DNA from: Terriglobus aquaticus
Lineage (GTDB): Bacteria > Acidobacteriota > Terriglobia > Terriglobales > Acidobacteriaceae
DNA: 64,000 bases
Assembly: GCF_025685415.1 (NCBI RefSeq)
Contig: NZ_JAGSYB010000001.1
Span: 2,666,001-2,730,000 of the forward strand
Direction: 5' to 3'
The notes under the pieces were generated by a model. That model made no database searches. It was given only the letters and a program-made list of their open reading frames with translations, and was not told where the DNA came from. This document shows positions 1,243-64,000 of this stretch, piece after piece (position 1 is the first letter of the stretch; the number at the start of each line of letters is the position of its first letter). The translations under genes were made by a program, and so were the position numbers.

Positions 1243-2133
1243 ATGGGTCTGACCGCAGTCGTTGTGGATGACGAGCCGCTTGCCCGGCGGGAGTTGCACT
1301 ACCTGCTCGGTCGCATTGGCGATGTGGACGTAGTCGCCGAGGCGAGCAACGGTATCGAGGCGGTGGAGACGATTCGTAACGCCGCGCCAGACGTGGTCTT
1401 TCTGGACGTGCAGATGCCCGGACTGGACGGCTTTGCGGTGTTAAAGAAGCTGATCGACGCCAAGGCTCTGACCCCGGAACGCGAGGAGCCGATGCCCGAG
1501 GTGGTCTTTGCGACAGCATTCGACCAGTACGCGGTGCGTGCATTTGAAGTGAATGCAATCGACTACCTGCTGAAGCCATTCGAAGAGCGGCGGGTGCGCC
1601 AGGCGATTGAGAAGGTGCGAGCCCGGCAGCAGGCGAGCGCATCGTCAAACGGTCAAACAACTATCGAAACCGTGCCGCAGGCCAGCAGCGAGGAGCGGCT
1701 GGAGAGCCTGCTGAAGCTGCTGGAGTTGCAAGCGGGAGCCACGCAGGCCGGGGCTGCAACGGCCCAGGCTGGTCCCGCGCGCGGCACCAGGGTACGCAGC
1801 GGTAAGGTCGTGGTGCGCAGCGGACAACGATTGCTGCTGGTGGAGGAGCGCGACGTGTCGTTTGCGTCCATCGAAGAGGGCGCCATCTCCGTGGTGACGC
1901 CGCAGATGGAAGGGCTGGCGAACTGCCGCACCATCGAAGAACTGGCCGAGCAGGTGGACCCGAACAGTTTCTGGCGCGCGCACCGGTCGTACCTGGTGAA
2001 CATTGCGCACATCCGGGAGGTGGTGCCCTGGTTCAAGAGCACGTACCTGCTCCGCATGGATGACCGCAAGCAAACGGAGATCCCGGTGGCACGGGCACAG
2101 ATCAAGCGGCTTCGGGAGTTGTTCAACTTGTAA
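1243..2133 (+). CDS. LytTR-family two-component response regulator
   Basis: This 296-residue regulator has an N-terminal CheY-like receiver (about residues 4-122) with acidic residues D9/D10, phospho-acceptor D55 in FLDVQMPG, and lysine in the LLKPF motif. An alanine/glutamine-rich linker (about 128-188) follows. The C-terminal LytTR DNA-binding domain (about 190-295) contains the FWRAHRSYLVN and PVARAQIKRLRE segments typical of AlgR/LytR proteins. It should bind DNA when phosphorylated. No histidine kinase lies beside it here, so its partner is unknown. The start is supported by a -10 box ending 6 bases upstream and by the receiver beginning at once. Confidence 0.93.
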   Translation: MGLTAVVVDDEPLARRELHYLLGRIGDVDVVAEASNGIEAVETIRNAAPDVVFLDVQMPGLDGFAVLKKLIDAKALTPEREEPMPEVVFATAFDQYAVRAFEVNAIDYLLKPFEERRVRQAIEKVRARQQASASSNGQTTIETVPQASSEERLESLLKLLELQAGATQAGAATAQAGPARGTRVRSGKVVVRSGQRLLLVEERDVSFASIEEGAISVVTPQMEGLANCRTIEELAEQVDPNSFWRAHRSYLVNIAHIREVVPWFKSTYLLRMDDRKQTEIPVARAQIKRLRELFNL

Positions 2134-2162: not shown

Positions 2163-2179
2163 GGCGAACATCCGGCGAA
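2163..2179 (+). promoter_or_regulatory. Direct repeat GGCGAA-N5-GGCGAA, candidate SOS operator of dinB
   Basis: GGCGAA at 2163-2168 is repeated exactly at 2174-2179, an 11-base period that puts both copies on one face of the helix. It ends 44 bases before the dinB start. The same arrangement occurs directly before imuA at 61861. Read as GAAC-N7-GAAG it resembles the direct-repeat LexA site GTTC-N7-GTTC known from alphaproteobacteria. The regulatory role is inferred. Confidence 0.5.
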
Positions 2180-2223
2180 GATGAGACACTGGTGCGGGCG
2201 CGTAAGAGCCCGGCCAGAGCGCC

Positions 2224-3333
2224 ATGCCTGAAGATTTCGGTCCGCCAGCACCGCCCCTGCGCAAGATCGTGCATGTGGACATGGACGCGTTCTACGCGTC
2301 GGTGGAGCAGCGCGACGATCCTTCCCTGCGCGGACGACCGGTCGTTGTGGCGTGGAAGGGTTTGCGATCCGTGGTGTGCGCGGCTTCGTACGAGGCGCGG
2401 CGCTTCGGCATTCGTTCGGCCATGCCCGCCGTGCGCGCGGAGAGGCTGTGCCCGGAAGCCATGTTCGTTCCGCCGGATTTTGTTCGGTACAAAGCCGTGT
2501 CGCAGGCCGTGCGCGAGATCTTTCAGCGGCATACGGACGCGATCGAGCCGCTGTCGCTGGATGAAGCCTACCTAGATGTGACGGAGAACAAGACTGGCCT
2601 GCCGACGGCCACGCGCGTGGCCAGCACCATCCGGCAGCAGATTCGGGACGAGCTGAAGCTGACTGCCTCGGCCGGTGTGGCGCCCAACAAATTTCTCGCC
2701 AAGGTGGCGTCCGACTGGCGCAAGCCAAATGGCTTGTTCGTCATCCAGCCGCACGAGGTGCTCGAGTTTCTGCGCGACCTACCGGTAGGCCGAATTCCTG
2801 GGGTGGGCAAAGTAAGCGAGCAGCACCTGGCCGCACGCGGCGTGAAAACCGTGGGTGACGTGCAGCGGATGGACCGCGTGGAGTTAGAGGCAAGGTTTGG
2901 CCGGTGGAGCGCACGGCTGCACGCGCTGGCGCATGGCATTGACGACAGTCCCGTGGTGGCAAACCGCGTTCGCAAACAGGTAAGCGCGGAGGATACGTTT
3001 GCCGCCGACGTGCCGCTGTATGAGACCGAACCGGCGATCCGACGACTCGCGGAGAAGGTCTGGAAGGCAAGCCACGGCAACGCCCGTGCCGCGCGCACCG
3101 TCGTCCTCAAGTTGAAGACGAAGGAGTTCACCAGTCTTACGCGAAGCTTGACGCCGGTGGAGATGCCGCGTTCTGCGGAAGAGCTGGGCGATGTGGCCGT
3201 GGGCATGCTGGACCGCGTTGCTCTGCCGCCGGGGCAGATGTTTCGCCTGGCCGGTGTGGGCCTGAGCAACTTCCAGAGCGATGTGGAAACACCGCTGTTT
3301 GCTGAGCCCGGCGACGGCGTAGCGGAGATCTGA
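2224..3333 (+). CDS. dinB: DNA polymerase IV (Y-family translesion polymerase)
   Basis: This 369-residue Y-family polymerase copies damaged DNA with low fidelity. The palm opens with HVDMDAFYASVEQ, giving metal ligand D19 and a steric-gate position at Y24. The second catalytic motif SLDEAYLD is present. A helix-hairpin-helix segment (IPGVGKVSEQHLAARGVKT) and a little-finger domain follow. The C-terminus contains ETPLF, which resembles a beta-clamp binding peptide. All key residues are intact, so it should be active, unlike the ImuB protein at the window end. The ATG is the first in frame; a direct repeat upstream suggests damage-inducible control. The gene stands alone between two regulators. 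Confidence 0.95.
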   Translation: MPEDFGPPAPPLRKIVHVDMDAFYASVEQRDDPSLRGRPVVVAWKGLRSVVCAASYEARRFGIRSAMPAVRAERLCPEAMFVPPDFVRYKAVSQAVREIFQRHTDAIEPLSLDEAYLDVTENKTGLPTATRVASTIRQQIRDELKLTASAGVAPNKFLAKVASDWRKPNGLFVIQPHEVLEFLRDLPVGRIPGVGKVSEQHLAARGVKTVGDVQRMDRVELEARFGRWSARLHALAHGIDDSPVVANRVRKQVSAEDTFAADVPLYETEPAIRRLAEKVWKASHGNARAARTVVLKLKTKEFTSLTRSLTPVEMPRSAEELGDVAVGMLDRVALPPGQMFRLAGVGLSNFQSDVETPLFAEPGDGVAEI

Positions 3334-3434: not shown

Positions 3435-3476
3435 CTAAGTTCTTAGTTGACAGCGAAGGAGTGTGCGGCCTATGCT
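3435..3476 (+). promoter_or_regulatory. blaI-mecR promoter with adjoining palindrome
   Basis: The -35 hexamer TTGACA (3447-3452) and the -10 TATGCT (3471-3476) are 18 bases apart. The palindrome CTAAG-TT-CTTAG (3435-3446) abuts the -35. BlaI-type repressors bind short dyads and usually repress their own operon, so this is a likely autoregulatory operator. The promoter places transcription start near 3483, which rules out the upstream TTG at 3447 as a start codon. Confidence 0.6.
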
Positions 3477-3497
3477 CCGAAACTGTTAGGAGGTGCG

Positions 3498-3878
3498 ATG
3501 GGCGGGAAGAAGCGGGAAGGTTTGACACCACTGGAGTTGAAGGTGATGCAGTCGTTGTGGTCGGTGGGAAGCGGCACCGTCGCGGACGTGCAGGAGCAGA
3601 TGCAGCCCACGCCGGCCTACACCACCGTGCAAACGGTGCTGAACATCCTGGAGCGCAAGGGCAAGCTGACTCGCACGCTGGAAGGCCGAGCATACCGGTA
3701 CCGGCCTGCCCTGTCCGAGGCGAAGGCACATAGCCACGCGTTGCGCGACCTGGTGGACCGCATGTTTGGCGGATCGAGCGAAGACCTGGTGATGAGTCTG
3801 GTGAAGACACGGCAGTTGGACGCGAAGCGCCTGGCCAGCATAGCGCGCAAGCTGCAACAGCAGGAGGACGGGCAATGA
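3498..3878 (+). CDS. BlaI/MecI/CopY-family transcriptional repressor
   Basis: This is a 126-residue winged-helix repressor beginning MGGKKREGLTPLE. The start at ATG 3498 follows a strong AGGAGG site and lies just downstream of a good promoter. The family motif runs through LTPLELKVMQSLW, the recognition helix region PAYTTVQTVLNILERKG, and the RAYRYRPA wing. A C-terminal dimerisation helix follows. The stop codon overlaps the start of the M56 gene by 4 bases (ATGA), so the two are coupled. In known BlaI/BlaR pairs the membrane protease triggers cleavage of the repressor. What this pair senses is unknown, because the partner lacks a penicillin-binding sensor domain. Confidence 0.93.
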   Translation: MGGKKREGLTPLELKVMQSLWSVGSGTVADVQEQMQPTPAYTTVQTVLNILERKGKLTRTLEGRAYRYRPALSEAKAHSHALRDLVDRMFGGSSEDLVMSLVKTRQLDAKRLASIARKLQQQEDGQ

Positions 3879-5245
3879 GCACAGCAATGCACTCCTTGGC
3901 GAATTATCTGTTGAACGCTTTATGGCAATCGGTGCTGATTTGCGCGGCCGGATGGGGAGTCGCACGGCTGGTGCGGCCGCTGGGGGTTGCGGCGGAGCAT
4001 CGCGTGTGGGTGAGTGTGCTCTGCGCGCAATGCATACTGCCGGCTTGTGCGGCGCCGGGGCTTGCGGCGTCTCTGCAGCGATGGATGGCATCGGGCAACG
4101 AACGCAACGGTGCAGTCACCGTCACCGTGGGGGCGGCGCAAGCAATCGGCCGTGGTGGCGCTGGCGTTATGCTCCTGGACCTCGCTGTCACGATGTGGGC
4201 TTTGGTGACCTTCGCGTTCGCCATGCGATTCGTGGTGCAGATGTGGCAGCTGCGGAACTTGCGGCGGGACGCTTCACCACTCACGCTGAATGACGCGGAC
4301 GCGCTGTGGATGCGCGACTCCTGCGCACAGCTTGGCATCGCACACCCCGAGCTGCTGACTTCCAGCAGTGCGAACACGCCGCTGACCTTTGGGTTTAGCC
4401 GGCCCGTGCTGATCTTGCCAAGCGGCTTTGCACAGCGTGTCAGCACCAGCCGCTTGCGTGCCGCGCTAGCGCACGAACTGGCGCACGCGACACGACACGA
4501 TGCAAGGAAGCAGGTGCTGTTTCGAGTCGCCACGCTGCCGCTGGCGTGGCACCCTGCCGTGCACTTTGCCATGGCCAAGATTGCCGAAACGCGTGAGTGC
4601 GTTTGCGATGGGCTTGCTGCCGGAATGACGGGAAGCGCGCGGGAGTATGCGCGATCGCTGCTGGAACTCGCTTCCCTGCTGACCGCACGCCGGCCAGCCA
4701 ACGCTCACGCCATCGGCCTGTTCGATGCCAACCAGTTGGAGAGGAGAGTTCTTATGTTGAACCGTCGTGTGTTTCCTATGGCTCGGTCCTTGCGCGTAGG
4801 TCTGGTGGCAGGCAGTGGTGTGCTGGCAATGGTGGCGTGTACGTCTGCCCTGGCATTTCGAATGGACGCGCCGGGACAGCCCTCGGCTGTGTCGGCTTCG
4901 GATCAGAAGAAGCAACAGGGTCCGGTTCGCATTGCGCCGGGCGTAGCAGCAGGGCAGGTGGTCCAGAAAGTCACACCGGTGTATCCGCCGGAAGCGAAGA
5001 AGGCGCATATCTTCGGCGCGGTGGTGTTGCACGCGATCATCGGCAAGACGGGATCGATCGAACAGTTGGATGTTGTCTCGGGACCGCCGGAGTTACGCGA
5101 CTCGGCCCTCGACGCCGTACGCCAGTGGGTTTACAAGCCATACCTGCTGAATGGCGAGCCAGTCGCGGTCGATACGACCATCACCGTGAACTATTCGTTC
5201 TCAGAAAACCCGCCGGCGAACGCACCGGCACCCGGCACGAAGTAG
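3875..5245 (+). CDS. M56 (BlaR1/MecR1-type) membrane peptidase with C-terminal TonB domain
   Basis: This 456-residue protein has N-terminal membrane segments (about 10-30, 45-65, 100-125), then a cytoplasmic zinc-peptidase domain. The zinc motif HELAH is at residues 200-204 and a downstream glutamate sits in AETRECVCDG. A further membrane segment lies near 310-330. Instead of a beta-lactam sensor domain, the C-terminus (about 365-445) is a TonB-like domain (TPVYPPEAKKAHIFGAVVL, QWVYKPYLLNGEPV). This M56-TonB arrangement is frequent in Acidobacteriota. It likely cleaves or signals to the BlaI repressor encoded directly upstream; the TonB part may contact an outer-membrane partner or act as the sensor. 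The ligand is unknown. Confidence 0.9.
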   Translation: MSTAMHSLANYLLNALWQSVLICAAGWGVARLVRPLGVAAEHRVWVSVLCAQCILPACAAPGLAASLQRWMASGNERNGAVTVTVGAAQAIGRGGAGVMLLDLAVTMWALVTFAFAMRFVVQMWQLRNLRRDASPLTLNDADALWMRDSCAQLGIAHPELLTSSSANTPLTFGFSRPVLILPSGFAQRVSTSRLRAALAHELAHATRHDARKQVLFRVATLPLAWHPAVHFAMAKIAETRECVCDGLAAGMTGSAREYARSLLELASLLTARRPANAHAIGLFDANQLERRVLMLNRRVFPMARSLRVGLVAGSGVLAMVACTSALAFRMDAPGQPSAVSASDQKKQQGPVRIAPGVAAGQVVQKVTPVYPPEAKKAHIFGAVVLHAIIGKTGSIEQLDVVSGPPELRDSALDAVRQWVYKPYLLNGEPVAVDTTITVNYSFSENPPANAPAPGTK

Positions 5246-5264
5246 CTTTTGCAGTTGCGCGCGG

Positions 5265-5292
5265 AGGGCACGCGGGCCGGCCCGCGTGCCCT
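5265..5292 (+). terminator. Terminator-like perfect palindrome
   Basis: A 28-base perfect palindrome (AGGGCACGCGGGCC followed by its complement) starts 20 bases after the M56 stop. The T-rich tail is weak (TTCCCTATG), so termination may be inefficient. Confidence 0.5.
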
Positions 5293-5369
5293 TCCCTATG
5301 CAACGGAAGACCCGCTGAAGCTTAGGTAATGTCGAGCAAGTGTGCCGGTCCCCAATAGCGTTCCCCATT

Positions 5370-5398
5370 TTGCTCGCGATATATCGTACTGCGATACA
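5370..5398 (+). promoter_or_regulatory. Promoter of the MarR-CLC pair with internal palindrome
   Basis: TTGCTC (5370-5375) and GATACA (5393-5398) are 17 bases apart. The palindrome CGATATATCG (5377-5386) lies in the spacer, and CGATA recurs at 5392. It is a candidate site for the MarR protein encoded just downstream. Confidence 0.45.
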
Positions 5399-5415
5399 CT
5401 TAGAGCAGGACGATT

Positions 5416-5829
5416 ATGGCGGACGAATCACAGCGCTATGACATGGAGCATCTCGCGAAGTTTCGTCGGGAGATCCGGCGTTTTCTCCAGTTCAGTGAAC
5501 AGGCGGCGATCTCCGCAGGCCTGCAGCCGCAGCAGCATCAACTGATGTTGCAGGTAGCCGGAGCGCCGCAGGATGAGTCCGTCACGGTGAGTTATATCGC
5601 CGACCTGATGGGACTTAAACATCACACGGCTGTGGGGCTGAGCAAGCGCTGCGAAGCGGCGGGCCTGCTGCGCAGGGTTCAGGACCCGCAGGATCGCCGT
5701 TGCGTGGTGTTGCAGTTGACCAGCTTGGGCCGGCGGGCCTTGCGACAGCTTTCTGAGGTCCACACCCAGGAACTACGCGACCTGGCACCCAGCCTGATTC
5801 AGGCGTTGTCGCAGATCCAGAAAACATAG
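5416..5829 (+). CDS. MarR-family transcriptional regulator
   Basis: This is a 137-residue winged-helix regulator. The recognition region reads ADLMGLKHHTAVGLSKRCEAAGLL and the wing contains VQDPQDRRCVVLQLTSLGRR, both typical of MarR proteins. The start ATG is preceded by an AGGACG ribosome site. The CLC transporter gene starts 6 bases after the stop, so both genes are probably one transcript and the regulator may control the transporter. A palindrome between its promoter elements fits autoregulation. The inducing ligand cannot be read from the sequence. Confidence 0.88.
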   Translation: MADESQRYDMEHLAKFRREIRRFLQFSEQAAISAGLQPQQHQLMLQVAGAPQDESVTVSYIADLMGLKHHTAVGLSKRCEAAGLLRRVQDPQDRRCVVLQLTSLGRRALRQLSEVHTQELRDLAPSLIQALSQIQKT

Positions 5830-5835
5830 ACAGGC

Positions 5836-7494
5836 ATGCAGCGGTCAGGTAACCGCGCGACCAGAAGAGAGGTACGTTTGCAGTCAGAACCATCAGCCTT
5901 GAGCGACTTTTCAGTCGATCGGCGCGTTTGGGTGCTCTCCGGCGTGGCGGTGCTCATCGGCGTGTGCGCGACATTTCTAGCGGTGCTGCTTCTGCGTCTT
6001 ATCGCGCTCTCGACGAACCTCTTCTATTACCACCGCCTCAGCTTTGCATCGGTCTCGCCCGCGGGCAGCCCGCTTGGGCACTGGATGGTTGTCGTTCCCG
6101 TGGTGGGCGGGCTCATCGTGGGCCTGATGGCGCGGTTCGGTTCCGACAAGATTCGCGGTCACGGCATACCGGAGGCAATCGAGGCCATTCTGCTGCACCG
6201 CGCGCGGGTTGATCCAAAGATCGCGGTCTTGAAGCCGGTGTCGGCGGCGGTCGCTATCGGATCCGGTGGGCCCTTCGGCGCGGAAGGCCCAATAATCATG
6301 ACAGGAGGTGCCGCCGGCTCCCTGATTGGTCAGTGGATGCACGTAACCGACAGCGAGCGGACCACCCTGCTGGTTGCGGGAGCGGCGGCGGGCATGTCCG
6401 CCACCTTTGCGACACCGGTCGCCGCAATCCTGCTCGCAGTGGAGTTGCTGCTGTTTGAATGGCGGCCGCGGAGCCTGGTTCCCGTGGCAGTGGCAAGTGC
6501 AACGGCGGCGCTGCTGCGGGTTTATTGGCTCGGCGCAGGTCCGCTGTTCCAGATGCCCGCGCTGCCGGACCTGACGCGTGTCTCATTCGTCATCGGTGCA
6601 TTGTTCCTCGGAGCTCTGCTGGGGCTCGTGTCCGCTGGCATGAGCCGGCTGATGTATTGGTTCGAGGACCGGTTCGACCACCTGCCCATTCACTGGATGT
6701 GGTGGCCCGCCCTTGGCGGCATCGGTATCGGTGTGGGAGGCTTGTTTTTCCCGCGCGGCCTCGGCGTTGGCTACGAGAACATAGCAGAGCTGCTTCGCGG
6801 AAACGCGCCGCTCGGGCTGATTGTCGGCATCCTGATCGCGAAGTCGTTGATGTGGGCGTTCTCGCTCGGTTCTGGAACGTCTGGCGGCGTGCTGGCACCG
6901 CTGCTCATGATCGGCGGAGCGGTAGGCGCGTTGGCGGGACACCTGGCTCATGCCTCGGCAGACGCTCAGGCCGTGTGGGCACTGATCGGCATGGGATCGA
7001 TGCTCGCCGGCGCGCTAGGAGTGCCTCTGACCGCGATCCTGTTCAGCCTGGAAGTGACGCATTGCCTCCCTGCCCTGCTTCCGCTGGCGGTCGCGTGCGT
7101 TGCGTCGTACATCGTGACGGCAATGATCATGCCGCGATCGATTCTGACCGAAAAGCTGAGCCGGCGTGGCTACCACCTCACTCGGGAATATGGCGTCGAT
7201 CCGCTGGAACTGGTGCTGGTGAAGGAGGTCATGTCGCCTCTTGCCCTGGGAGAAGAAAACCTAACCCTACCGAAGATCTACACGTACGCTGACTCCACGA
7301 CGCGGTCTGCAGCAGAGCTGATGGCGACGGAAGGCGTGGAGCGCATTCCTGTGATCGATCGAGCAAACGGGCAGGCCTGCGGTGAGCTTTCGTTGCACGA
7401 TCTGCTGCGCGGGCGGGGGCGGTCTGTCGTGCGAGAAAGCGAACGGCTCAGACTGTACAGCTATGTTCCGCCAGAGTTGGGCGGCCACAACTGA
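5836..7494 (+). CDS. CLC-family chloride channel/transporter with C-terminal CBS region
   Basis: This 552-residue CLC protein has about ten hydrophobic helices, the anion-selectivity segments GHGIPEAIE (109-117) and GAEGP (148-152, with gating glutamate E150), and GSGTSGGVLAPLL. The residue aligned with the internal proton glutamate E203 of the E. coli exchanger is leucine here (AVELLL), so proton coupling is doubtful. The last ~90 residues (VKEVMSPLA to DLLRGRG) look like a CBS pair, possibly a nucleotide-binding regulatory domain. An alternative TTG start at 5878 has a better ribosome site (AGAGAGG) than the ATG at 5836 and would remove 14 basic residues. It is likely cotranscribed with the upstream MarR gene. 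Confidence 0.9.
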   Translation: MQRSGNRATRREVRLQSEPSALSDFSVDRRVWVLSGVAVLIGVCATFLAVLLLRLIALSTNLFYYHRLSFASVSPAGSPLGHWMVVVPVVGGLIVGLMARFGSDKIRGHGIPEAIEAILLHRARVDPKIAVLKPVSAAVAIGSGGPFGAEGPIIMTGGAAGSLIGQWMHVTDSERTTLLVAGAAAGMSATFATPVAAILLAVELLLFEWRPRSLVPVAVASATAALLRVYWLGAGPLFQMPALPDLTRVSFVIGALFLGALLGLVSAGMSRLMYWFEDRFDHLPIHWMWWPALGGIGIGVGGLFFPRGLGVGYENIAELLRGNAPLGLIVGILIAKSLMWAFSLGSGTSGGVLAPLLMIGGAVGALAGHLAHASADAQAVWALIGMGSMLAGALGVPLTAILFSLEVTHCLPALLPLAVACVASYIVTAMIMPRSILTEKLSRRGYHLTREYGVDPLELVLVKEVMSPLALGEENLTLPKIYTYADSTTRSAAELMATEGVERIPVIDRANGQACGELSLHDLLRGRGRSVVRESERLRLYSYVPPELGGHN

Positions 7495-7550
7495 GCGCTG
7501 TTCTCGTCGTCACGTACTTTGCGCGGTGAAGCGAATGTTCAGTGCGGTTG

Positions 7551-9140
7551 CTAGTGGGCCGCCATCTGCTCGGGATCAACCTTTGCGGTCTTCGGCGGAA
7601 GGCGCATGATCCAGACCAGGGGCGAGAGCGCTGCCACTGTGCAGGCAAGGACGAAGAACGCATTCTTGTAAGCGAGCATGTTGGCCTGACGGCCAAGCTG
7701 ACCGTAGATTTGCGCCAGCGCCAACGGCTGCGCGCCGGCCACGCTGGAACGCGTCATCTGCGCGAAGCGCGACACGAAGTCGCTGACCGCGGCGGAGCCC
7801 GCATAGATGTTCGCGCCCAGCGCAACGGAGTGGACCTGAGCAGTGCGTGCCAGGAAGGTGGTCAGCAGAGCCGTGCCGGCCGATCCACCAATGTTGCGGG
7901 CGAAGTTGGATAGCGAAGAAATCTGATTGGACTTGTCGCGCGGCACGCCGACGTAGTTGAGCGTGCTGATTGGGATGAAGATGAACGGCAGCCCGACGAC
8001 CTGGAGAGCGCGCCAAAGCATGACCGTGTGGTAGCTGCTGTAAAGATCGAGCCGCGTCAGGTTGTACAGGCCGGCAGCGACGGCCAGGTAGCCGACCATG
8101 ACGGTGAAGCGCGGGTCGCCCTTGCCCAGGGTGCGACCGGCGATGGCCATGCCCACCATCATGACGAAACCGGCGGGCGATAGCACTTTGCCAGCGTTCT
8201 CTGCCGTGTAGCCCAGCAGCACCTGCAGATACTGCGGGATGAGTACGGTGGACCCGAAGAGCACCATGCCGAGCACCAACTGCAGAAAGACCGCGGTGCC
8301 GAAGTTGCGGTTCTTGAGCAACTTCAGATCGACGATGGGATCGGGATGAAACCACTCCCACAATACGAAGAACAGAAGGATGACGCCGGCGAGGATCGCG
8401 GTGGTCTGAATCTCACCGGAGCCGAACCAGTCTTTTTCCTGGCCTTTGTCGAGCGTGAACTCGAGCATGCCGACACCGATAGCGACGCTGAGCAGGCCGA
8501 TGTAGTCCACGGGATCGCGGCGCTTGGTGCGCGCGGTCAGCTCGGGTGGGTCCTCGACCATGCGGTGCGACAGCAGCAGCGAGATGATGCCGATAGGCAG
8601 GTTGATGAAAAAGATCCAGTGCCAGGAGTAGTTGTCGGTAATCCAGCCGCCGAGGGTAGGACCGATGGCGGGCGCGACGACCACTGCCATGCCGTAGAGA
8701 GCAAAGGCTTGGCCACGCTTCTCGATCGAGAAGGTGTCAGCCAGAATGGCCTGCTCACTGGGTGCCAAACCGCCGCCGCCTAGCCCCTGCAGAATGCGCG
8801 CGAAGATGAGCATGGGCAAGTTGGGCGCGAAGCCGCACAGCACCGACGACACCGTGAACATAGCCACGCACGTCATGTAGAAGCGCTTGCGGCCGATGCG
8901 GTTGGAGAGCCAGCCGCTGATGGGCAGGATAACGGCAGAGGCGACCAGGTAGCTGGTGAGCACCCACGTGGCTTCCTCCTGCGATGCACCGAGCGAACCG
9001 CCGATGTGCGGCAGCGCCACATTGGCGATAGAGGTATCCAGGACCTCCATGAAGGTGGCCAGGGTGACGGTCAGCGCGATCAGCCAGGGATTATGCTTCG
9101 GCTTCCACGCTGCTTCGATGGGTGCTGCGGCTGGCGGCAT
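7551..9140 (-). CDS. DHA2-family MFS multidrug exporter (EmrB/QacA type)
   Basis: This 529-residue inner-membrane antiporter has about 14 predicted helices. The DHA2 signature LDTSIANVALPHIGG lies in helix 1. Motif A appears as SGWLSNRIGRKRFY, and motif C-like sequence follows around GPTLGGWITDNYSWHWIF. The family extrudes toxic organic compounds, often with an EmrA-type adaptor, but no adaptor gene is next to it. It is divergent from a MarR-family gene with two palindromic operators in the 73-base gap. This is the usual arrangement for a drug-inducible exporter. The start follows no strong ribosome site but is followed by a short cytoplasmic N-terminus. Confidence 0.93.
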   Translation of the reverse strand: MPPAAAPIEAAWKPKHNPWLIALTVTLATFMEVLDTSIANVALPHIGGSLGASQEEATWVLTSYLVASAVILPISGWLSNRIGRKRFYMTCVAMFTVSSVLCGFAPNLPMLIFARILQGLGGGGLAPSEQAILADTFSIEKRGQAFALYGMAVVVAPAIGPTLGGWITDNYSWHWIFFINLPIGIISLLLSHRMVEDPPELTARTKRRDPVDYIGLLSVAIGVGMLEFTLDKGQEKDWFGSGEIQTTAILAGVILLFFVLWEWFHPDPIVDLKLLKNRNFGTAVFLQLVLGMVLFGSTVLIPQYLQVLLGYTAENAGKVLSPAGFVMMVGMAIAGRTLGKGDPRFTVMVGYLAVAAGLYNLTRLDLYSSYHTVMLWRALQVVGLPFIFIPISTLNYVGVPRDKSNQISSLSNFARNIGGSAGTALLTTFLARTAQVHSVALGANIYAGSAAVSDFVSRFAQMTRSSVAGAQPLALAQIYGQLGRQANMLAYKNAFFVLACTVAALSPLVWIMRLPPKTAKVDPEQMAAH

Positions 9141-61860: not shown

Positions 61861-61877
61861 GGCGAATAAAAGGCGAA
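61861..61877 (+). promoter_or_regulatory. Direct repeat GGCGAA-N5-GGCGAA, candidate SOS operator of imuA
   Basis: GGCGAA at 61861-61866 and again at 61872-61877, ending 5 bases before the imuA ATG. The longer units AAAGGCGAA repeat at 61858 and 61869. Spacing and sequence match the dinB site at 2163. Read as GAAT-N7-GAAC it resembles a direct-repeat LexA box. Confidence 0.55.
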
Positions 61878-61882
61878 CAACC

Positions 61883-63412
61883 ATGCCAGCCCTCACCGCA
61901 GCCCTCCTCAAGTCCCAGATCGAAGCTCAGCTCGCCCACCGCATCCCCGCAGCGCTGTCGCCCATGGCGCGCGAGGAGGCCGAGCGGCAGCCGCTGCACG
62001 ATCCGCGGCTTACGGAGTTGCTGGGTGGCGGCGTTCCCGTGGGCGGCATCACGGAAATTCATGGGCAGGCCTGCTCTGGCCGCACTTCCGTAGCGTTATC
62101 CCTGGCTGCTGCGGTCACTGCTGCGGAGCGGGTGGTCGCCTGGATTGACGTGAGCGACGAGCTGGACCCCGAGACCGCCGCGCTGTTTGGCGTAGACCTG
62201 GAACGGCTGCTATGGGTGCGCTGCGGCGCGCCTGCGCAGGAGAAGTCGCCAAGGTCAGCAGCCCTGCCCTCGCAGAAAGCGGATCCGGACACCAGGGAGC
62301 CTGCCGCGATTGCCTCCATGGAGAGCGCCCCCGCGGAGCCGAACCTGGTCGCCACGAATCACACGCCGCGTCCGGTGGGAAATGGTGGCTGCGGTAGCCC
62401 GCACCCGCGCGGCGAAGGCCGCGGCATGGCCGAAGCGATCGACGCGCTCCTGCAGCAGCAGCCACGCTCGGCCGCGATTCCGGATCGCCGCGCACGAAAG
62501 AAAATCGGCACGCCCGGCATGCCCAACCGCGACATTGCGCAAGCGATGAAGCCGCAGAGCGTGAGCCATCATGTGGCCATGGTGCTGGGCAAGGCCGCCA
62601 GGTTCCCTACCGGCAAGCCAGTCACTTCCGCAAAGAGCAATCTAGTTCCGCCAGAAGAGATCGTGCCCACCAACGGCAGCCTGTTCGGCCGGCAGGTGGA
62701 GCGCAAGGTGAGCTGTGGCTCGAACCGTCTGCCTTCTGCGGCAGACGCGCCAATCGGCTCTACCCGGTTGCCACCGGCGCAGCGGCCGCCCATGCCGTTT
62801 CCACATGCGTCGCCTTATCGCGAGGAGCAGATTCCGACCGACCGGCAGCCCTCGCGCCGCGCACAGCCGATTGCACCGCAGAAACCCAAACCACGCCAGG
62901 ACGTGCAAGGCCTGAATGCACTCGCTGCACGCCGCAAGGATGGCGCCGAGGATGTGTGGGCACCGCTTGACCAGGCGCTGCGCAGCGTCGATCTGCTGCT
63001 GCAGGCCGGTGGCTTCAGCCTGCTTGTGCTCGACCTGAGTTCCCTGCCTGCAGACAAAGTGTGGCGTATTCCACTGGCCACCTGGTTCCGGTTCCGCGCC
63101 GGCTGCGAACGCTCGCGTGGCAGCCTTGTCGTTCTGTCGCAACATCCGTGCGCTCGCGCCAGCGCCGACCTTACCGTCTCGCTGCGCCGCAAGGAGCTGC
63201 ACACCGAAGGCAACCGCATCCTGACCGGCAGCAGCATCAGCGTGGAATTGGAGCAGCAGCGCCGTGGGACCGGGACGACCGTTGCACCTCTGGATCGCTT
63301 TGCATCGCAAAGCAAAGTCGTTCCGTTCCGCAAGCCGGTGCAATCGGACCATCGCGCACACACACCGGAACCGCTGTGGAAGGCTGACACGCACTGGAGC
63401 GTGCGCGCGTGA
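61883..63412 (+). CDS. imuA: ImuA-like protein of the ImuA-ImuB-DnaE2 mutasome
   Basis: This 509-residue RecA-like protein works with ImuB and DnaE2 in damage-induced mutagenesis. The nucleotide loop is EIHGQACSGRTS; arginine replaces the usual lysine. A second strand, FSLLVLDLSSLPADKVW, and the SLVVLSQHPCARASADL segment follow. Between residues ~118 and ~350 lies a ~230-residue Pro/Ala/Arg-rich insert, so the protein is about twice the usual ImuA length. The stop overlaps the imuB start by 4 bases (GTGA). The direct repeat just upstream suggests SOS control. Confidence 0.82.
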   Translation: MPALTAALLKSQIEAQLAHRIPAALSPMAREEAERQPLHDPRLTELLGGGVPVGGITEIHGQACSGRTSVALSLAAAVTAAERVVAWIDVSDELDPETAALFGVDLERLLWVRCGAPAQEKSPRSAALPSQKADPDTREPAAIASMESAPAEPNLVATNHTPRPVGNGGCGSPHPRGEGRGMAEAIDALLQQQPRSAAIPDRRARKKIGTPGMPNRDIAQAMKPQSVSHHVAMVLGKAARFPTGKPVTSAKSNLVPPEEIVPTNGSLFGRQVERKVSCGSNRLPSAADAPIGSTRLPPAQRPPMPFPHASPYREEQIPTDRQPSRRAQPIAPQKPKPRQDVQGLNALAARRKDGAEDVWAPLDQALRSVDLLLQAGGFSLLVLDLSSLPADKVWRIPLATWFRFRAGCERSRGSLVVLSQHPCARASADLTVSLRRKELHTEGNRILTGSSISVELEQQRRGTGTTVAPLDRFASQSKVVPFRKPVQSDHRAHTPEPLWKADTHWSVRA

Positions 63413-64000
63413 GCCCGATCCACCAGCCGCGCTTCCTTTGCGTGCACGTACCGGAGTTCCCGGCGCAGGCGCGGCTGCGGCACCGTCCGGCTTTGCGCGG
63501 CAAAGCGATCGCAATCCTCGACGGAACACCACCGCTCGAAACTGTATGCAGCACCACCCGGCTGGCACGTCAGAAAGGCGTTCGCCAGGGCACCACGCGC
63601 GCCGAGTTGGACAGCTTCCCCGGCGTCGAAGCGCTGCGCCGCTCCCGCAGTGAAGAAGACAGCGCCGCCGCCGCTCTGCTGGCAGCAGTGTGGCAGGTCT
63701 CACCGCGCGTGCAGGTGCTTGCGCCTCGCAACGCAGCGCATCGCGTGGTGGTCGACATCGCCGGAACCGAACGCATCTTTGGTCCGCCCGCGCAGGTTGC
63801 GCGCAACGTGTTGCAGCAGGTGCGCGCCCTGGGCCTGCTGGCGCATCTGTGTGTCAGCGACAACTTCCACACCGCTGTATGCGCCGCACCCTACGCAGGC
63901 GGCAAGCCCGCCGTAGTTGCTCACGGAGCAGAGCGCGCCACGCTGGCACCGCTGCCACTCTCAGCGCTGGACGGCGTAGAAGAAGAGCAGCGCGACACCT
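63409..64000 (+). CDS. imuB: ImuB-like Y-family pseudo-polymerase (partial)
   Basis: The frame is open from GTG 63409 to the window end; 197 residues are visible. The palm starts FLCVHVPEFPAQARLRH: the metal-binding DxD of active polymerases is missing. The later SLDE motif is replaced by VDIAGTERIFG. This fits ImuB, which is inactive and serves as a clamp-binding scaffold. The rest of the gene, including any clamp-binding peptide, and dnaE2 would lie outside. Confidence 0.88.
   Translation, partial: MSPIHQPRFLCVHVPEFPAQARLRHRPALRGKAIAILDGTPPLETVCSTTRLARQKGVRQGTTRAELDSFPGVEALRRSRSEEDSAAAALLAAVWQVSPRVQVLAPRNAAHRVVVDIAGTERIFGPPAQVARNVLQQVRALGLLAHLCVSDNFHTAVCAAPYAGGKPAVVAHGAERATLAPLPLSALDGVEEEQRDT

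Follow-up and report, generated by a model that had tools for sequence, protein, structure and literature searches.

A tandem TTCGC repeat as a very probable LexA operator of translesion synthesis genes in Terriglobus aquaticus

LexA boxes differ between phyla (PMC8565304, PMC3323433, PMC3091678, PMC12700426). The alphaproteobacterial box is described as the direct repeat GTTC-N7-GTTC (PMC3323433, PMC8565304; for Caulobacter, PMC12700426), and the Gram-positive box as CGAAC-N4-GTTCG (PMC3323433, PMC3091678). For Balneolaeota, the direct repeat TTACACATATTTTWTACATA is given (PMC7739468). A LexA box has also been published for Acidobacterium capsulatum (Mazon et al. 2006, Microbiology 152:1109), and PMC7739468 places that work among the direct-repeat LexA motifs. 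It was the only paper on an acidobacterial LexA box among those listed by our literature searches, which covered Acidobacteria with LexA and LexA motifs generally.

The stretch of Terriglobus aquaticus DNA analysed here, called the window, is 64 kb long. The first-pass annotation had reported the same 17-base repeat before dinB and imuA, with the half-site form GAAC/T-N7-GAAG/C, and had proposed it as an SOS operator of the alphaproteobacterial direct-repeat type. Scanning the window reproduced both positions and the half-site form exactly: GGCGAA-N5-GGCGAA occurs at 2163-2179 (GGCGAACATCCGGCGAA) and at 61861-61877 (GGCGAATAAAAGGCGAA), with GAAC-N7-GAAG at one copy and GAAT-N7-GAAC at the other. 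These are the only two exact matches, and shuffled windows gave a mean of 0.05 and never two matches (0/100 shuffles). When spacers of 0-30 bp were allowed, pairs of GGCGAA were found in the window only at spacers of 5 (twice) and 15 (once). The predicted LexA-type operators are annotated at 2163..2180 (+) for dinB and at 61861..61878 (+) for imuA-imuB-dnaE2. Read on the − strand, the former is CTTCGCC-GGAT-GTTCGCC, with half-sites 11 bp apart, and the latter GTTCGCC-TTTT-ATTCGCC. Neither fits a strict GTTC-N7-GTTC, and the three strict matches in the window sit elsewhere.

The gene behind the first copy is dinB, encoding DNA polymerase IV of the Y family (2224..3333, +; PF00817 (IMS), 1.7e-52; NF002677, 439 bits, cut-off 256). 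Its ATG at 2224 is 44 bp from the repeat. The ATG at 61883 of the second gene lies only 5 bp from its copy. This first gene of the operon (61883..63412, +; PF00154, 3.6e-11) encodes a RecA-fold protein that is probably a mutasome accessory protein. It matches the NCBIfam ImuA model NF033429 weakly (25 bits, cut-off 150), and the label imuA-like follows from the RecA-fold match and the gene order imuA-imuB-dnaE2. The Y-family homologue imuB (63409..64000, +; PF00817, 7.1e-11) runs past the window end, and dnaE2, the error-prone DnaE, lies outside the window (L023, about 5028-8264; NF004225, 1172 bits, cut-off 939, and also Pfam). Upstream of dinB is a LytTR response regulator (window 1243-2133), and past it is a pair judged by eye to be a BlaI-type repressor and a BlaR1-type membrane peptidase (3447-5245).

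In the whole T. aquaticus genome (4,163,374 bases, two contigs) there are 13 exact repeats and none of a reversed-pattern control. The window shuffle rate predicts about 3.25 copies per genome (Poisson P 3.6e-5 for 13), and all 13 fall outside the called genes (P 1e-6). The non-random distribution anticipated by the first-pass annotation was thus found. Genes were called with a simple codon-usage caller, and small genes missed by its first pass were then sought by eye. Allowing one mismatch gave 83 matches, the 13 exact ones included, versus 39 for the control, which is too noisy for a gene list. A refined pattern, TTCGCY-N4-RTTCGCY, has 11 matches versus none for the control, and six of these coincide with exact sites. 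The remainder lie at lexA, at a second gene of a cysteine-pair family (L357) and at three places without a clear target (L034, L356, L358); at least two of the 11 (L034, L358) appear by eye to be intragenic. The strict GTTC-N7-GTTC pattern occurs 173 times in the genome versus 73 for its reversed form; we take this excess as uninformative, since codon usage may favour the two words unequally.

T. aquaticus has a single LexA match (TIGR00498, 199.7 bits, cut-off 110.95), with LexA_DNA_bind and Peptidase_S24 domains. The promoter of its gene is GGTTCGCCTTTTATTCGCTACAAT, in which a one-mismatch copy of the repeat, AGCGAATAAAAGGCGAA, ends 11 bp before the ATG. The presence of the repeat before lexA, a check proposed with the original observation, extends well beyond this genome: 93 of 96 lexA promoters from other genomes carry both TTCGC halves without a mismatch. 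These comprise 80 named loci and 16 further ones, each represented by its last 70 bp; one of the 80 is labelled Verrucomicrobia, yet its LexA is 82% identical. Within 200 bp upstream, the best match to the TTCGCC repeat has at most two mismatches in all 80 named loci and ends 10-24 bp before the start in 76 of them, and the few that end elsewhere may be chance matches. In at least 81 of 94 promoters, a −10 hexamer (TACAAT, TATAAT, TAGAAT, TACACT or TAAAAT) comes directly after the second half, and in at least 47 of 94, TTGCRR or a near form stands immediately upstream of the first. In promoters with both elements, the operator is the 16-bp spacer. A few promoters (L262, L286, G214/L355) carry a third half-site 11 bp further upstream. 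In plasmid records, the nearest LexA proteins are about 39-42% identical and come from several phyla, among the 25 of 688 records listed.

The recA and dinB regions served as independent checks. For these, a matrix was trained on 22 distinct lexA sites only, all from genomes other than T. aquaticus, and each region was compared with 200 shuffles, so the lowest attainable p is 0.005. Of 130 control stretches, 4 passed. The counts that follow come from related genomes, which are non-independent samples. Within the window, the matrix ranks the imuA site first (25.8 bits) and the dinB site second (13.6 bits), followed by another position at 13.3 bits. Of the two window sites, that of dinB is the weaker, with a score just above the window noise. 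The distant lexA genes of the phylum (13 genes, 49-59% identity) gave p<=0.01 in eight cases and p<=0.05 in all 13.

Upstream of recA (50 regions, T. aquaticus included), p<=0.01 was obtained in 42 and p<=0.05 in 44, and all 42 sites have the same orientation. With the half-site columns alone, 36 of the 50 regions still give p<=0.01. An exact or one-mismatch repeat was considered for recA and discarded: both searches missed the gene, and the best copy there has three mismatches. The T. aquaticus site found by the matrix is CTTCGCTTTTTCTTTGCT, 72 bp before the ATG, with three mismatches to the exact repeat. The recA copies of the genus are degenerate, with a second half TTTGC; the form is TTCGCYNTTTNTTTGCY in 19 genus members, and TTCGCYTTTTATTCGCT or a sequence near it in several other genera. 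The expected repeat before recA was absent from the exact and one-mismatch searches and present as a degenerate copy recovered by the lexA-trained matrix. For dinB, p=0.005 was reached in 10 of the 11 genus members with a dinB match (T. aquaticus included), and the distances of these sites differ. Among the 14 dinB regions from outside the genus, 2 pass, and in the next family of the order, 1 of 8; at the limit used, a dinB match was absent in 16 of 41 genomes.

The 2006 study of A. capsulatum reportedly defined a GTTC-N7-GTTC box by gel shift and is said to have suggested lateral transfer between Acidobacteria and Alphaproteobacteria. It also reportedly described recA as inducible without a LexA sequence. 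In the relative G214, which we take to be A. capsulatum, GTTCGGTTTTTGTTCGCTATACT lies upstream of lexA. It is a GTTC-N7-GTTC, with place and spacing as in T. aquaticus; at this homologous place, it makes it very probable that the T. aquaticus repeat is the same operator. The recA candidate of G214, CTTCGCTTAACTTTCACC, located at −82, has p=0.075, and thus the recA box is not significant for that species.

Two of the 13 exact sites of T. aquaticus belong to dinB and imuA-imuB-dnaE2. One site is flanked by a 90-residue protein plus SRAP and, on its opposite side, by a one-helix small protein, a paralogue of which adjoins a further site. Other exact sites adjoin genes for ribonucleotide reductase NrdA, for a response regulator at a distance of 240 bp, and for two small cysteine-pair proteins. 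UvrD/PcrA is a further neighbour, scoring above the Pfam cut-off and below that of NCBIfam pcrA. The rest are purA, which diverges from the gene of a 114-residue protein; the gene of the helicase Lhr; a MoeA/Glp-like gene (L024:5112-6383, +; 93 bp from the site); and the gene of a radical-SAM protein that comes near the Rv2578c and PA0069 families and reaches neither cut-off. One-mismatch copies were found upstream of lexA and of another radical-SAM protein (TIGR03916, putative DNA modification/repair, 558 bits, above cut-off). The uvr genes and dnaE2, also named beforehand as expected targets, are represented by the imuA-imuB-dnaE2 operon and UvrD/PcrA in T. aquaticus and by UvrB in one relative. 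Some of the sites beside purA, MoeA-like, response regulator, mltG-like, MiaB and NUDIX genes may be chance.

Several neighbours have features of their own. A radical-SAM gene on the small contig (L025:3866-5032, −; C2, 36,958 bases) has its ATG within the operator, 8 bp before the site end, and this layout recurs in several relatives. A glp gene also precedes lexA in a Sphingomonas plasmid, and an old linkage with the MoeA/Glp-like gene (L024; L384) is possible. The one-helix small protein has 95 residues and, by eye, one hydrophobic helix. Its copies (L014:5083-5367, +; L015 near 4872-5107, −; L166 near 1256-1522, −) show 38% identity between them and come from two genomes, and every copy is 12 bp from an exact site; that in L015 is split across two frames. 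The protein falls in no Pfam family and has only a marginal NCBIfam match. By analogy only, it is a candidate damage-induced division inhibitor. The small family with two cysteine pairs (L018:4648-5055, −; L357:930-1487, −; L185:1530-1919, +; L187 near 1373-1525, −) is likewise seen in two genomes, and its members begin 12-13 bp from the site. The two members scanned, L018 and L357, gave no Pfam match. L019:4618-5040 is perhaps a looser analogue.

In 60 relatives, exact matches versus the reversed control number 73/16 in the genus, 60/29 in the rest of the family, 44/26 in the other family of the order and 24/16 in the class. The excess above control thus fades with phylogenetic distance. We examined 115 of the 133 exact sites in the 36 same-family relatives; those at the order and class levels were counted. 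Only 16 of the 115 lie inside called genes, as against 10690 of 16492 control positions (65%) in the relatives' fragments (P 2e-29). Together with the 13 of T. aquaticus this gives 128 sites, 77 of which adjoin the families listed here. Fifty-one are unassigned, 15 of them intragenic, so some exact copies are chance. The families are ImuA (14 sites in 10 genomes), Rv2578c-like radical SAM (10 in 10), Y-family polymerases including dinB (10 in 8), LexA (6), SRAP (5), Lhr (4) and Ku (3), with single adjacencies for UvrB, RecN, YoaA/DinG, Ogt, DnaG and others. The family list was made after the sites had been inspected, so these adjacencies are descriptive and no test. Two relatives have three imuA-like genes per genome, each with an exact site (L192, L197 and L200 in G013; L179, L180 and L183 in G002). 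Sites also lie upstream of two TcmP (three-Cys-motif partner) genes and a DUF5131 gene (L111, L113, L159). An identical site, GGCGAATATAAGGCGAA, is found in three genus members (L184, L194, L217) about 205 bp before a gene that is mltG-like by eye, with no obvious closer target.

On the genomic evidence, the GGCGAA-N5-GGCGAA repeat is very probably a LexA operator. The genomes themselves show where the sites lie, namely upstream of lexA, recA and repair genes, that they are enriched and conserved, and that the encoded LexA has both canonical domains; LexA binding, repression and induction by DNA damage are inferred from this. A LexA dimer would bind across two tandem TTCGCY half-sites, preceded preferably by a purine and separated by 11 bp, one turn of the helix. 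Bound over or beside a promoter, it would exclude RNA polymerase, most directly at lexA, where the site abuts the −10 element. After DNA damage, RecA filaments would promote LexA self-cleavage and the operators would be vacated. Transcription of dinB and imuA-imuB-dnaE2 would then follow, together with that of lexA, recA and other repair genes.

Another damage-responsive regulator sharing the LexA targets, for example a PafBC-like or phage-type repressor, could in principle use the same sites. Some sites do precede genes without a known repair role, as such a regulator would allow. The most conserved copies, however, sit in the lexA promoter directly before the −10 element, as LexA autoregulation predicts, and their position and spacing match the GTTC-N7-GTTC in the lexA promoter of G214, the form reportedly published for A. 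capsulatum LexA. We therefore regard a different regulator as very improbable. The lexA promoters also bear on whether the repeat might be a promoter element recognized by a sigma factor, since there the site is flanked by a TTGC-type −35 (in at least 47 of 94) and the −10. Those hexamers are ordinary and separate from the site, though, and elsewhere the repeat occurs in both orientations relative to genes and, at imuA, directly upstream of the ATG. A sigma-factor element is accordingly most unlikely.

That same closeness of the imuA copy to its ATG, only 5 bp, would suit a byproduct of ribosome-binding sites or GC-rich sequence, and the dinB copy scores near noise in the lexA-trained matrix, as a chance match might. 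Both the shuffles and the reversed-pattern controls speak against this, as do the repeat in 10 of 11 dinB promoters of the genus at differing distances and its opposite-strand reading at lexA and recA. We consider it extremely improbable that the window copies are accidental or such a byproduct. Of the reading proposed by the first-pass annotation, the LexA operator is thus the part that the sequences support, while most sites depart from the strict GTTC-N7-GTTC of the alphaproteobacterial type.

Beyond the LexA operator itself, a broader proposal seems to us about as likely to hold as to fail. The LexA of the Acidobacteriaceae may recognize RTTCGCY heptamers in tandem, and this third dialect would stand between the GTTC-N7-GTTC of Alphaproteobacteria and the GAAC half-site of Gram-positive bacteria. 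recA may be directly repressed by LexA through a degenerate operator invisible to the published box. The regulon may include undescribed small effectors, among them the one-helix membrane protein, as a candidate damage-induced division inhibitor, and the small zinc-ribbon-like family. In practical terms, the repeat offers a usable definition of an SOS box for a large, little-studied soil phylum, with a list of genes for testing. It suggests a simple answer to the puzzle of A. capsulatum recA, reportedly damage-inducible with no LexA box: most relatives examined have a recA box that a search for GTTC-N7-GTTC would miss, though the G214 candidate itself is not significant. It is also a well-conserved case for the question, shared with Alphaproteobacteria, of how a LexA dimer with two-fold symmetry recognizes a direct repeat.

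The operator type is already known; its form and several of its targets are new, as far as our limited literature search shows. What is new in detail is the exact form of the site, along with its occurrence upstream of recA and of several uncharacterized small genes. If G214 is A. capsulatum, the two species share the family, a LexA of 75% identity, a direct repeat of 11-bp period and its place in the lexA promoter. Unlike the GTTC-N7-GTTC reported for A. capsulatum, the sites described here keep TTCGC twice invariant and do not keep the leading G: a strict GTTC-N7-GTTC is found in 1 of the 13 exact sites of T. aquaticus, 3 of the 99 intergenic exact sites of relatives and 1 of the 96 lexA promoters. 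Whereas recA of A. capsulatum reportedly lacks a LexA sequence, most of the relatives examined have a degenerate recA site; with TTCGC as the invariant half-site, the recA operator was perhaps hidden from a search for GTTC-N7-GTTC. The direct repeat, its 11-bp period, present in the window sites, the genome copies and the lexA promoters alike, and the TTC core are shared with the alphaproteobacterial box. In the one example compared, Sphingomonas lexA (GTTCCATATAAGTTCCGCGTC), the halves are instead GTTCC and GTTCC, without the GC extension. The Balneolaeota box is also a direct-repeat LexA box, but its half-site is different. The GAA half-site core is common to T. aquaticus and the Gram-positive box, and the recognition-helix stretch LATVHKHVTNLHNKG of T. 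aquaticus LexA resembles, by eye, that of Listeria (SSTVHGHLARLEGKG); the Gram-positive box is an inverted repeat, whereas that of T. aquaticus is a direct one.
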